A DNA stretch of 64,000 nucleotides, from contig JAFEAQ010000022.1 of the NCBI GenBank assembly GCA_018266295.1, positions 62,001 through 126,000 on the forward strand, given 5' to 3'. Position 1 is the first letter of the stretch; each line of letters starts with the position of its first letter. The position numbers were made by a program, and so were the translations under genes. Below the pieces are notes generated by a model. The model saw only the letters and a program-made list of their open reading frames with translations. It had not been told where the DNA came from and searched no databases. Of the stretch, positions 1-28,853 are shown piece after piece. This stretch comes from Bdellovibrionales bacterium. Lineage in GTDB: Bacteria; Bdellovibrionota; Bdellovibrionia; Bdellovibrionales; Bdellovibrionaceae.

Positions 1-3000
1 TGTGAGCTTTATGATGCGGTAAAACCAGAACTGCAAAAAGTCCTTGAGCAACGAATTGTCGATCGCAAGTTTATCGATGAACGCACCAAAGCCTGCTTTG
101 AACTGAACAAATCGTTAGGCATTGATTTTCTCGATCAACGCTATCATACGATCCTCGGCCAAGAAGATGCCGGCGGCCGTATCGTCATGGGTCCTAAGAA
201 TGATTTTTACTGCAAGCCCGGCGGCGGAAAGCCCGTTGCTGAGATTCCAAAATTCTTGCAGGGCAATCATGTGACTTTGTTCGGTCCTCCTGACGATGCC
301 AAGCTTTCGATCAATGCCATGAATGCTTACCATCGTAAGCTCAAAGATGAGCCTGCGGTGGTGGCTGAGCTTTTAAAAACTCACACGAGTGAAGCTAAAT
401 GGGGTGCCGACGACGAAGACTCTAAAACTCCCCTTCGCCGTGATTTGATTTCAGCCGGCGAAAACCTCACGGGATGCTTTAATAAAAACCTCCACTTCGT
501 CGACCCAAAATCACAGAAGGAATACAAACTCGAAAAAGATCATCTTTCACTGCCGATCAAACGCTTCCCAGGTTTAGCACTGCCTTGTTTGTTCTTGTAT
601 TACAAAAGTAATCCCCTGCCTTTGCATATGTATGATTTTGCTTTGCACCTCTTTGAGCACTGGCAAAATCCTGAAGCCTTGGCGTTCTACGTGCCGAAAC
701 TGGAAAACGAAGAAGAAGCTCGCTACATCCGCGTCATGATTGAGACTGCAGAGAAAATGATCGCGAAGCTTCACCCGGCTTATAAGGTTGGGACGGTTCG
801 CTTACTGATCGTGCTTGAAAATCCGCGGGCGGTTTTCCGCGTGAACGAAATCATGGATGAGCTTTACCCTTACTTTGCCGGCGCTTCTCTCGGCTGGCAT
901 GATTACTTGGGGTCCACCGCACGACTCTTTAAAGAGGACGCGAACTACCGCATTCCGGTGAAGGCTGATCCGAATATCGTGATTAAATATATTAAAGGCT
1001 CGCATGATCTGCTTGCCAATGTCGTTGGCCCGCGTGGCGGGATTAAGATCGGCGGCATGTACGGCATTCTTCCTGTGGACACGGACCTTGCGAATCCTTC
1101 TTTCCAAATCACTATGAAGGGCTTCATCAAAGACGTCGTCACCCAGATGAAACGTCACCTCTCGGGCTTCTGGGTCGCCCATCCCGATTTTGTGCGCTTA
1201 GGTCTTGCCTTGATTGAAGCTTGGAAATTCCATGCTTCGGGCGATTCCAGCAAACTCGAGACGATGATTAAATCCTTGCTCGATCCAAAGTACCACAAAG
1301 AGATCTTAGATTTTACTTTCGGGAATGACATCCAAGGCCTTGATATCACGGATCCTCTCTATGCCCGCTCGCTGATTGTGGCCGACATCAAGGAGTCGAC
1401 TTATATTGCGAACAATCATCCGGATGAAATCCGTTACAACGTCTTTCAATCGCTGCAGTATCTGACCGACTGGCTTTCTGGGAATGGCTGCGTGGCCCTG
1501 CCAACCCAGATCGAAGGCATCCCCGCCCGCGTGATGGATGACCTTGCAACGGCCGAGCGCTCTCGCTGGGAAGTCTGGCATGAGCTTCACCATGGCCGCT
1601 TCACTATCGAAAACTTCTTAAAAATTGCGCACGAAGAACTGCATTTTATTCGTAAAGATCTTTCAAATGGAAAAAAGATCGTTCAAGTGAAGTGGAATGA
1701 GCGCACAGAAAAATGGTACCCGGTTGCAATGAATCTGATGATTCACTTAATGACAAACCCGCAACCGGTGGAGTTTGCTTCAGAATTGCTTTTGCCATTC
1801 ACTTTAGACTCCATCCGCAACTCCCAGGACCCTTGGCAAGCCATCACGAAAATTGATCCAGCGAAATACGCGATCAAACCTTATGTTACGCGCTTTAATT
1901 ATTACTTCTCGATGTGCGGCAGCCTAGCTTTTGCAACCGAGATGGCAAAGAACCTGACGGTGGACCTTGCGCAAGCTGAAAAAGTCATTCGCCAGTTTGA
2001 TATGGCTCAAATCCTAGAAGCTGCAAGCTTCCATGGCGATATTGGAGAAGCTAAGAAAACCCTCGATGCCATGGCTTCGAAAGAACAAGCCCTCGTTCAT
2101 CAAGAGGATCAAAAAATCCAAGAAGAGCTGCTCGCTCAAGGCAAAGCCTATCGCGAAAAGTTCGGCATGAAGTTTTTAATCTCAGCCCAGGGAAAATCCG
2201 GTAAGGAACTTCTCGCGGCACTTCTGGCAAGAATGAACAACTCACCGGCGGTTGAAATGGACAATGCGCGCACGGCCCTTTGGGAAATCACCAAAAAACG
2301 CCTCGCCGCTCATCCCATGAATCATCTGCAAGAGTTCATAACCGAAGCTCTCGCTCGCCACAAAGTGGATGCGGCTCAGATTTCAATCTCTACCGGCGAA
2401 GGCCTTTTACAAAATCTTGCTTTCGGCCACGCAACCACCGAGACCTGGTTTGAAGTCGCATCACTAAGTAAAACCATCGGCAGCTGTTACGCCATTGAAT
2501 ACTTCCACCAGAAAGGCATTCCGCTCGCGACTCCAGTGAATGAAGTCTTTGCAAAAAGTCCGTCAGGCTTTAGGCTAAAATCCCTCAATGCGCAACATCC
2601 CGAGTGGGCTGACAAAGTCACGCTGGCTCATTTGATGAGTCATGCGGCGCTCAATATGCACTATGTGATCGGCACTCCGGCAAACGAACCGATGCAGAAC
2701 TTAAAAGAGCTCATCGAGAGCTCCGCCGGAGTACTGAATGAACCCGGCACGAAGTTTCAATACTCGGGCGCAGGTTTCTTAGTGCTAGAGCATCTCATTG
2801 AGGTGCTTGAAGGAAAACGCATTCAGGACCTCACCCGTCCCTTCTTGGATCAGCTGGGACTGACCGATTTTTCGTTTGAACAAAAAGATCTACCGGGCGT
2901 GCAATACGCAACGGCTTATGATGTGGCGGGAGTTGCAATCCCAGGCGGCCGTAAGCTCTTCCCGGCTTTTGCTGCTGGCGCCATGGGGACCGCCCACTCG

Positions 3001-4526
3001 ATGGAAGTTTTCCTGACCGCGCTCACCAAGGCATTTCATAGTGTGAAGGGTTTTGGGCCAATCTCGCATGATACGGCGATACAAATGCTATTTGGGACGG
3101 ACAAAGGCTGCCGTAAGTTTATGGGCACCAAAATGGGACTTGGTATTTTCACCGCTGAAGCCGGCCCCAATCGTCTTGCGATCCATCAGGGGGCGAACGA
3201 CGGCTATCGTTGCTTGTTTGCTCATTGCTACGACGGCCCCGCCAAAGGCCAAGGCTTTACGATTCTTTGTAATGCCGAACTCAACGGTGTGCTTTTCATT
3301 TCTGAAGTCGCACAAGCTCTTCTGAAAGAGTTTAATATGGCGGGCATTGATTACAGCCGCTTTAAGAAAACCTTCGTGAGCTCTGAAATTCCGCAAGAGC
3401 AGATCGTTAACATCGGCTACCGTGATTTGATTTTCGATGCCTTTGAATCCGATTTACCGGAAGAAATCATCGAAAAAGGACCTCTTGATCCCCTGGCGAA
3501 ATACAATCTTGCAGTGGGTGGCAAAGTTCTCGAAACCACCAATCAAGGCTTTGCCCGCGCAGCGAATCTGCTGTCGGATCATCTGCCGTTGTTTGACCCA
3601 AAACTCTTTGGCCGCCAGGGCAAGATCATGGATAGCTGGGAAACCGTCCGTCACAATCAAAAGCCTTGTGATGAATTGATCTTTGAACTTAAAAAACCTT
3701 CGGCCATTCACTACGTCGCTGTTTCCACCAAGTACCATCTTGGCAATCAGGCCCAGTTCACAAAACTTGAGGGTTTGAATAGCGCCACAAACACGTGGCA
3801 GGAAATCATTCCAAAGACGGCTCTTGAAGGCCACGCTCTTAAGCGAATGAAAACTTCGACGGGAGCCACGAAATTCAGTCAGATCAAAATGTCTCTCTAC
3901 CCAGACGGCGGTATTTCACGCCTCGGGCTTTATGACGAGTCTTTGCCGGAAACAGAAAAATCCAAGTACGTTTCACCAGAGTTGGCAAAGAGCGAAGTCT
4001 TCGCTGACGAAATTCCAAAAACTCAGCGTTCTCTGGCGCCAAAGTACGATGCCAACGGCAAGGAGCTCGCAGCAAACTGGCAAGCCGCCGGTGACGAAGT
4101 CGATGTTGCGAGTCTTGCTTACGGTGCAAAAATAGTAAAAGCAACAAATGAGCACTATGGACCGGCAGCTCAGGTGATTTCGCCCTATCCACCGCTTCAT
4201 ATGTTTGACGGGATGGAGTCCGCTCGCAGCCGTGACAAAGGACACTGTGAGGAAGTTGTCATTGAACTAGCAAAGCCTGCAGCCATTCACCGTTTAGAAC
4301 TCGATTTTACATACTTTGTGAATAACAATCCGTTAGAAGTTTCAGTCGAGGGCCTCGCCAACGGCGCTTGGCTTTCACTTGTTCCACGCACCAATGTGAA
4401 AGCCTATGCTGCGAATAAATTTGCGATGGATCTTTCCCCCATGACAAAAGTCACACAAATAAAACTTACGGCCTTTCCTGACGGTGGTATTAATAGGGTT
4501 AAAGCTTTTGCACGAAGGGGTCAGCT

Positions 4527-21665: not shown

Positions 21666-22256
21666 CTACTTCAACGTGAGTAGTGACGAGCCGGTGTAGG
21701 CGGTCCAGAAGCTCCAGAGACCGAAACCTAGGAATAAGCTTGCGGCGAACCAGCGCATGTATTTCATGTTCACTTTGTGCGCTAGTTGATCACCCACGAA
21801 AACGGCGGCGCCGTCTGTTAACATCATTCCCATGGTCGTGCCCAATGTAACCGCCCACGCTGAATCGAATTTTGCGCCCAACGCCACTGTCGCCAATTGA
21901 GTCTTGTCGCCCATCTCCGCCATAAAAAACAAGAACACCGTCGTCAAAAAGGGGCCGTACTTTGAACCCTCTTTCACTTCGTCTGCTTCATCGGGTTTCA
22001 ACGTCCACAGAGCGAACGCCACGAACAACGCTCCAAGGATGTTTGACATCACCATCGGGCTCACCGTCGTTGCCACCCAATAGCCGCCCCACGAGGCCAA
22101 TGCGTGGTTCAGAATCGTTGCCACGAAAATGCCCGCTAAGACCGGGATTGGTTTTTTGAATTGCGCCGCAAGCGAGAATGCTAAGAGCTGGGTTTTGTCG
22201 CCCATTTCACTGGCCGCAACAAGGAGGAAAGAACTGCTGATGGATTCAAATGACAT
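21666..22256 (-). CDS. TMEM165/GDT1 (UPF0016) family cation exporter, probably Mn2+
   Basis: A 196-residue protein with six membrane helices and the two inverted family signatures: SEMGDKTQLLAFSLA near the N-terminus and AEMGDKTQLATVALG in the second half. Bacterial members such as MneA export manganese; the Asp/Glu of the EMGDKT pair bind the ion. The start at 22256 gives the usual MSFES N-terminus; frames extending to 22343 run into the leader. The leader holds a manganese-riboswitch candidate (22385-22528), which supports the Mn2+ assignment. Confidence 0.9.
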   Translation of the reverse strand: MSFESISSSFLLVAASEMGDKTQLLAFSLAAQFKKPIPVLAGIFVATILNHALASWGGYWVATTVSPMVMSNILGALFVAFALWTLKPDEADEVKEGSKYGPFLTTVFLFFMAEMGDKTQLATVALGAKFDSAWAVTLGTTMGMMLTDGAAVFVGDQLAHKVNMKYMRWFAASLFLGFGLWSFWTAYTGSSLLTLK

Positions 22257-22257
22257 A

Positions 22258-22380
22258 GGTACACTCACTTCTTCTATTTTTTTGGGGGAATTTTGTAGAG
22301 TGAGGCTTGTTTCGTTAGTAACAAGACGGACCTCACGATACAAAACACCCGAGTTATCGGTTCTCTGTTTTTGTTATCGT
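22258..22380 (-). promoter_or_regulatory. Putative expression platform of the Mn riboswitch
   Basis: After the aptamer come two strong stem-loops. The first pairs ACGAUA/UAUCGU and CAAAAAC/GUUUUG around the inner hairpin CCGA-UAAC-UCGG (22380-22335). The second pairs GUGAGG/CCUCAC and CUUGUU/AACAAG (about 22338-22301). Neither is followed by a U-run, so control of translation rather than termination is more likely. The start region is GAAGUGAGUGUACCUAUG without a strong ribosome binding site. Confidence 0.5.
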
Positions 22381-22384
22381 TTGG

Positions 22385-22528
22385 TCAGTCTCGTCGACGG
22401 TTTGGGAAACCGCTGCTTGGCCGGAGAATGTCGGCGTTTCCGCCTTACCCTCAGTATGTCGACCAGTCATTTCAACAAATCTTTGTGATTAAAACAAAGT
22501 CCTATTTGCTGAACCAACTACTCCCTGA
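22385..22528 (-). promoter_or_regulatory. yybP-ykoY-type manganese riboswitch candidate
   Basis: In the transporter leader the RNA reads UCAG-GGAGUAG at 22528-22518 and ends GACGAGA-CUGA at 22395-22385. UCAG pairs with CUGA, flanking GGAGUAG and the purine-rich GAGA just as the P1 stem flanks GGAGUAG and AAGA in known yybP-ykoY aptamers. Inside are a perfect 10-bp stem (UUCAGCAAAU with AUUUGUUGAA), the conserved-looking GUCGACAUACU, a GGCG-GAAA-CGCC hairpin and a CGGUUU-CCC-AAACCG hairpin. Known aptamers of this class bind Mn2+ and control MntP- and GDT1-type exporters. Assigned by eye, not by covariance model. Confidence 0.7.
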
Positions 22529-22608
22529 ATCTAAGAAGAAAATAGCAAATCCCCGTCAAAACCGTCAAGTTTTGGCATGCTTTGATCTAAATTGAGAGGA
22601 GGTCTCAA

Positions 22609-22863
22609 GTGGAAGACACCTGGCAAATATTTATCGATGACCTGACTGAAGACAACTACACGGAATACGGTGATTTTAAACGCGAGATGGATCATCAGCT
22701 CCGCCGGCTGGTAGAGAGCTCTCCACCTTTTACCGATCAGCAAGCCCGCGAACTCTACAGACTTCGCCAGGATTATCTATGGACCGACCATCCTGACGAA
22801 GACATCGACATCATCAAACGCGATATCAAAAACCGCGTTGAAAGAATCGCGCAACTACACTGA
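22609..22863 (+). CDS. Small acidic protein of unknown function
   Basis: 84 residues, GTG start, with an excellent ribosome binding site GAGAGGAGG at 22594-22602. The product is charged and mostly helical (DDLTEDNYTEYGDFKREMD, then RELYRLRQDYLW) without Cys or membrane segments. It is divergent from the manganese exporter leader, so the promoters of both lie in 22530-22590. Its stop overlaps the end of the convergent thiolase gene by 9 bases. Not recognised. Confidence 0.7.
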   Translation: MEDTWQIFIDDLTEDNYTEYGDFKREMDHQLRRLVESSPPFTDQQARELYRLRQDYLWTDHPDEDIDIIKRDIKNRVERIAQLH

Positions 22864-28163: not shown

Positions 28164-28649
28164 TTACAGCTTATTCACTTCTGCCAAGATGCGAGGAACT
28201 TCATCTAAGTGGTTCTTCGCATACTTGATGTACTCAACAGCTTTCGTCTGAAGCAAACGACCATCTGCCATTTTCTGGCAAAGAACCGGCTCCAAAGGAT
28301 CTGTGATGTTGTAGATAGACTTGTGTTGTGGCCACAAGTTGGATTCGTCATTGCTGCCACCCATGCAAAGGGGGATGTAATGATCGATCTTGAAATCCAT
28401 ACGATTCATCTCACCCGTGCGGAAGCCCAATTGATCGTATTTTACGAACAGGCCTCTCTTCGTTTGAGAATCCACATTGCGATTGCAATATGGGATTTGC
28501 TCTGGGTAGCGATGCGCATCCGGATGATCGCAAAGTTTTCCCGGAGTCAGAGTAGCATCTGGTCCTGATGGAAATCTCGCGTTGTTTTGGTATGCGAATG
28601 TGTTGATTGAGAAAACGGATAATACGATAGCGACGTACAGCTTGAACAA
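28164..28649 (-). CDS. Exported HNH-type nuclease-like protein
   Basis: I place the start at a TTG (28649) because GGAGGGG lies just upstream and it yields a signal peptide (FKLYVAIVLSVFSINTFA) directly at the N-terminus; an ATG at 28673 is not preceded by a ribosome binding site. The mature protein of about 145 residues carries DHYIPLCMGGSNDESNLWPQ, the beta-beta-metal core found in HNH and related nucleases (Asp-His, Asn), plus three Cys pairs compatible with export. The catalytic residues resemble the family but activity is not proven. Confidence 0.72.
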   Translation of the reverse strand: MFKLYVAIVLSVFSINTFAYQNNARFPSGPDATLTPGKLCDHPDAHRYPEQIPYCNRNVDSQTKRGLFVKYDQLGFRTGEMNRMDFKIDHYIPLCMGGSNDESNLWPQHKSIYNITDPLEPVLCQKMADGRLLQTKAVEYIKYAKNHLDEVPRILAEVNKL

Positions 28650-28853
28650 GTTCCCCTCCAAATAGTCTGCCATTAGTTGGTGGCAGGTAGAAACGTCGGA
28701 CCGTATTTCCGACATATATTTGCGCGTGCTCGGGAATAAGGACTAACAATCTGCCTAGGCGATTTCAATACATTTTACTTACATGATACAGCACGTTGGA
28801 GGACGTTGTTTCGGACGCACCAAGGATGATATGTATCAGATTAGAGGATTTTA

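Follow-up and report, generated by a model that had tools for sequence, protein, structure and literature searches.

A predicted Mn2+ riboswitch of the yybP-ykoY class before a GDT1-family exporter gene in Bdellovibrionota

The window examined here, a whole stretch of 64,000 nucleotides from a bacterium of the Bdellovibrionales, holds a gene for a GDT1-type exporter behind a long structured leader, and raises the question whether this leader is a metal-sensing riboswitch and how it would act on the gene. A preliminary description had proposed a yybP-ykoY-type manganese riboswitch before the exporter, and homology, covariation and gene context all bear this proposal out. A Mn2+ riboswitch of the yybP-ykoY class very probably controls the GDT1 exporter; the basis of this reading is a conserved aptamer, its covariation, and the regularity with which it precedes Mn exporters. 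Neither the class nor its ligand nor the link to exporters is new; the novelty is a largely unannotated set of members. The earlier remark that no Bdellovibrio-type example had been described fits the open-access literature searched, which contains no description of a yybP-ykoY or manganese riboswitch in Bdellovibrio; one text there names both yybP-ykoY and Bdellovibrio, but in unrelated places.

The leader and its predicted aptamer

A covariance model, R1, was built from 19 aligned Bdellovibrionota leaders with the window excluded, and its structure (P1, inner P1, P2, P3, P3 tip, and P4) was written by hand. The gene, promoter and aptamer features of the window are as follows.

22539-22568, minus strand: predicted sigma-70-like promoter TTGACG-18-TATTTT (consensus scan, 9/12 matches)
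22379-22534, minus strand: predicted yybP-ykoY (Mn2+) aptamer (R1 49.2 bits, E 1.1e-11, window left out of training)
22525-22528, minus strand: 5' strand UCAG of the P1 switch helix, 4 pairs with 22388-22385 (R1 alignment)
22518-22525, minus strand: L1 motif GGGAGUAG, its first G within P1 (R1 alignment)
22471-22513, minus strand: P2 hairpin, arms 22513-22504 and 22480-22471, inner stem 22499-22495 / 22485-22481 (leader fold)
22461-22465, minus strand: P3 5' strand UGGUC, partner GGCCA at 22422-22418 (R1 alignment)
22453-22459, minus strand: L3, ACAUACU (direct sequence)
22433-22444, minus strand: extra GGCG-GAAA-CGCC hairpin at the tip of P3, missing from the 19 relatives of R1
22398-22412, minus strand: P4 hairpin CGGUUU-CCC-AAACCG (leader fold, R1 alignment)
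22385-22393, minus strand: CGAGA junction strand (22393-22389) and P1 3' strand CUGA (22388-22385) (R1 alignment)
21666-22256, minus strand: gene for a GDT1-family Mn2+/cation exporter (196 aa, ATG 22256-22254, PF01169 E 2.5e-45, two EMGDKTQ motifs)

The Pfam match confirms the GDT1-type exporter that had been named downstream. A longer GDT1 frame of 225 aa from TTG 22343 was rejected, starts in relatives lying at about the position of ATG 22256. No MntP was found in the genome of the window. The promoter is weak on its own (1 found by the consensus scan versus 0.6 expected), and weakly suggests an RNA start just before P1.

The P1-flanked GGAGUAG and GAGA pieces described earlier, in the right order and with several stems, were all recovered. 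When both strands were read, the order on the minus strand was GGGAGUAG (22525-22518), GUCGACAUACU (22463-22453) and CGAGA (22393-22389), and the stems P2, P3, and P4 are three hairpins between these core pieces. The earlier range of 22258-22528 spans almost the whole leader; the aptamer itself occupies 22534-22379, and 22378-22257 is the predicted expression platform. The leader folds at -84.6 kcal/mol (z -3.9 versus 200 dinucleotide shuffles, none of which was as good). In the R1 alignment, the four-way junction P1-P2-P3-P4 with the GAGA junction strand is present in the window. GGGAGUA of L1 and GAGA at the junction position are found in all 43 elements of the order (43/43 each), and P2, P3, P4, and the inner part of P1 covary in relatives. 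The window P1 has 4 pairs only, which is a point against the riboswitch reading.

In the training alignment, standard pairs occupy 90.7% of cells versus 70.1% when shuffled, with two-sided changes at 21 of 31 pairs, and pairing falls below 48% when the partner is slid by one column. With all 43 elements aligned to R1, 92.1% of cells pair versus 68.8% shuffled, and 22 of 31 pairs are two-sided; this alignment leans to the model, and its two-sided pair count is not above shuffles (166 of 500 reach the same number). The inner pair adjoining L1 is G-C in 36 and A-U in 7 of the 43. Nineteen of these elements, matched by coordinates, are R1 training rows, and 24, including the window, are not. The window element has the lowest R1 score of the 43, 49.2 bits versus 62.7-113.2. 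Within its genome (4.2 Mb) it is the sole significant place (E 7.0e-10, next best E 1.1); two further weak places (16.5 and 14.3 bits) were taken as chance.

Class membership, distribution and controlled genes

A scan with the Rfam model RF00080 had been proposed as a check. It gave no match at 22200-22620 of the window even at E<=10, and nothing over the gathering cut-off of 45 bits in the whole genome. Four sub-threshold matches around the leader to other Rfam models, two of them for snoRNAs, one for a miRNA and one for U6, were taken as chance. The only Rfam gathering match in the window is a purine riboswitch aptamer, RF00167, at 28643-28741 on the minus strand (45.4 bits versus a cut-off of 37). 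Near the GDT1 gene of another genome, G050, a cobalamin riboswitch (RF00174, 43.8 bits) was seen at 2861-3023 of locus L003, minus strand.

Of 16 loci of relatives, chosen because the motif was visible, 10 gave an RF00080 match to the element at E<=1; the highest score, 44.6 bits (E 8.8e-9), falls narrowly short of the cut-off. RF00080 is a poor test for the window, because at its cut-off it misses the E. coli K-12 mntP leader (L134, 1462-1576) and passes in only 1 of 140 genomes of the order. That the Rfam 15 model stays below its cut-off on the established E. coli mntP riboswitch is a sensitivity gap in its own right. The one element of the order over the cut-off, G065:C1:1859349-1859504 (L136, 49.3 bits), precedes an MntP-like gene and belongs to the GCAAGACC type, unlike the branch that holds the window element.

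R1 finds the E. coli mntP riboswitch (66.8 bits, E 1.8e-17), and RF00080 finds the elements of relatives; both results indicate an ancestry shared with proven members. The E. coli alx leader was not found by R1. In 18 loci from other phyla, 16 places were matched by R1, and RF00080 reaches its cut-off in 4 of these loci. The gathering score is a database threshold and not a property of the class; the window element is, by homology, a yybP-ykoY class member overlooked by Rfam, and not an RF00080 annotation, and Mn2+ sensing is predicted for it.

R1 matches were obtained in at least 43 of 140 genomes of the order and in at least 55 of 368 genomes of the phylum at E<=0.001; these counts are lower bounds, because the stricter filters of large genome searches missed L136 of G065, which yet scores 40.7 bits in a small set. 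All 43 elements of the order precede a Mn exporter, 35 GDT1 and 8 MntP, gene names in relatives being taken from short sequence motifs, with Pfam checks covering the window GDT1 and four MntP proteins (PF02659 confirmed in 4 of 4 tested). Twelve more elements of the phylum lie before GDT1 (9), MntP (2), and a small lipoprotein-like frame (1, in G257). Since two unrelated Mn exporters, GDT1 and MntP, stand behind one aptamer, the evidence for Mn2+ as ligand is strong, though circumstantial.

The G257 element (L148; 45.4 bits with R1, 18.8 bits with RF00080) was kept apart from the exporter set, as 1 of 55, because its neighbour is no exporter. It belongs to one genus of another family (L148/L151 of G257; L152 and L153 of G258) in which the aptamer scaffold has altered L3 letters and precedes a 39-aa lipoprotein-like frame in two genomes; a second scaffold copy stands before a frame of 261 aa or more for a membrane protein.

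A search of 59 genomes with the leader DNA gave only short pieces outside the genome of the window, and the comparison was therefore made through the downstream gene. A full-length GDT1 match was present in 28 of the 59 (own genome and relatives); upstream of it lay an intact element in 17, in agreement with the R1 matches, a broken or collapsed one in 1 (L005), and none by eye in 10. In L005 (G029, 1410-1566; R1 only 19.4 bits), the element is broken after L3, and a stretch between two GTCGACA copies is absent as compared with L006, while the hairpin over the ribosome site is kept; this may be either natural loss or assembly collapse. When 84,980 named genomes were searched with an exact DNA pattern, 27 stretches were obtained; these come from Bdellovibrionota and, among others, from Croceicoccus, Caulobacter, Clostridiales, and an actinomycete. 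Most have the full aptamer and, as read by eye, a GDT1-like or MntP-like start behind it; in L062 and L080 the remaining aptamer parts are absent, and these two are probably chance matches.

Expression platform, alternative readings and origin

Past the aptamer, the typical leader of relatives reads CGAGACUGACA..GG - loop - CCGUGUCGUCUCG ... AGACCUCACGGC ... GUGAGG - start codon. Its third strand is complementary to the P1 3' strand or to the anti-Shine-Dalgarno (ASD) strand, and the latter is complementary to the ribosome site. The candidate counterparts in the window are given below, with duplex energies compared with 200 shuffles per leader.

22322-22336, minus strand: anti-aptamer strand, of which GGUCCGUCUUG (22332-22322) can pair with CGAGACUGACC (22393-22383), duplex p 0.025
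22336-22331, minus strand: GUGAGG within the anti-aptamer strand, alternative partner 22305-22300, anti-ASD duplex p 0.145 for the window alone
22299-22305, minus strand: ASD strand CCUCACU, duplex with the ribosome-site strand at p 0.090 when the window is taken alone
22264-22269, minus strand: ribosome-site strand AGUGAG, a weak Shine-Dalgarno sequence

These strands suggest a translational ON switch. As judged from known structures, Mn2+ and Mg2+ would bind between L1 (GGGAGUAG) and L3 (ACAUACU, A 22457) and lock the weak P1. Without Mn2+, strand complementarity would allow the P1 3' strand CGAGACUGACC to pair with the anti-aptamer strand GGUCCGUCUUG, and CCUCAC, left free, would cover the ribosome site. 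With Mn2+, P1 would retain its strand, the freed GUGAGG would take CCUCAC, and the ribosome site would open, so that the GDT1 exporter is proposed to be made when Mn2+ is high.

Folding support for this scheme is uneven. The p-values over leaders are descriptive because the rows are related; at p<=0.05, anti-aptamer pairing is found in 35 of 43 leaders, anti-ASD pairing in 33, and pairing of the ASD with the ribosome site in 22 (L127 counted as a miss in the last two). Two of the three platform duplexes of the window are matched by 9% and 14.5% of shuffles. Openness of the window ribosome site rises from 0.19 in the free fold to 0.58 with the aptamer forced, a change reached by 0 of 24 shuffles. 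Of the 43 leaders, 18 gain more than 0.05 in openness when the aptamer is forced, 7 lose more than 0.05, and the other 18 stay within these limits; on average, openness moves from 0.25 to 0.31, a small effect (Wilcoxon p 0.006, related rows). The forced-aptamer fold of the window is computed to lie about 11 kcal/mol above the free fold in energy (gaps of about 7-18 kcal/mol over leaders), and because of this the switch decision is probably taken during transcription, before the anti-aptamer strand exists. The relay of strands is well supported as conserved complementarity and less well as an equilibrium switch, and its translational working is reasonably likely in detail.

The small mean opening effect over the 43 leaders would also suit a Mn2+ aptamer that acts at transcription, by Rho-dependent termination or attenuation, instead of opening the ribosome site, and E. 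coli mntP is a precedent in which a translational riboswitch is joined with Rho (PMC11647493). This possibility deserves consideration, but is rather unlikely: no terminator-like hairpin with a U-run was found in 22150-22750, and a complement of the ribosome site is in place in many leaders, where by eye it changes together with the ribosome site. A leader of the same scaffold might also sense another divalent metal or pH, or sensing might have been lost in the genome of the window, whose element is the most divergent of the 43 by score and has an extra P3 hairpin and a short P1. This is improbable, as L1, L3, and the junction letters are intact, including the position of the Mn2+-contacting adenosine, and across the order the elements of relatives are followed by Mn exporter genes. 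A chance meeting of motif words with ordinary stems in a long leader, with which the silence of RF00080 on the window would agree, is refuted by the R1 results on window, genome and order (E 1.1e-11 from an independently trained model, covariation in relatives, a place unique in the genome).

The window GDT1 is 66-69% identical to proteins of two genomes in another family of the phylum (f26), and 49-58% identical to full-length GDT1 proteins from within its own family and order. A 48-protein tree groups it with the two f26 rows at 99/100 support, in a bootstrap that had not settled. The window leader shares UCAGGGAGUAG and the letters ACUGAG with the f26 leaders, whereas UUAGGG is found almost throughout the rest of the order. 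Horizontal transfer of exporter and riboswitch together is perhaps the simplest reading. More tentatively, Bdellovibrionota may possess a Mn2+ riboswitch branch of their own, in which a conserved five-strand relay (P1 5', P1 3', anti-aptamer, anti-Shine-Dalgarno, and ribosome site) is kept while the gene alternates between GDT1 and MntP, and which could pass from family to family as a cassette of riboswitch and exporter, as the window would exemplify.

Since RF00080 passes in 1 of 140 genomes of the order, database annotation would call predatory bacteria and their kin devoid of Mn2+ riboswitches. Predicted members in at least 43 of the 140 genomes fill this blind spot and name a likely manganese-toxicity response of the group, with R1 as a better search model. 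The same wiring before two different exporters offers a natural test of platform retention upon gene exchange.

Comparison with known systems

The yybP-ykoY aptamers of known structure from X. oryzae and L. lactis (RF00080; PMC6754395) share with the window the GAGA strand, the four-way junction, and the P1 switch helix. L1 GGGAGUAG is common to the window and the class, and the motif wording is that of the Rfam consensus. According to PMC6754395, L3 of X. oryzae is ACAUACU, as in the window, and its Mn2+-contacting A48 (ACA48U49ACU52) would correspond to A 22457. The window element differs in lying below RF00080 detection, in its extra hairpin at the P3 tip, and in its P1 of 4 pairs.

The E. 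coli mntP riboswitch has the same core as the Bdellovibrionota elements, and is experimentally established as a translational switch that is ON with Mn2+ and frees the ribosome site (PMC11647493). It controls MntP, whereas the window element precedes GDT1, and in the downstream leader of E. coli mntP the relay strands, judged by eye, do not recur in that form. The preliminary description was also right that exporters of the GDT1 family are known under yybP-ykoY control: a review reports it in 328 of 333 screened UPF0016 strains (PMC7380456). A parallel in gene and control is Vibrio mneA (GDT1/UPF0016), which, according to PMC7380456 and PMC13274385, combines the same exporter family and the same riboswitch class as predicted for the window, in another phylum.
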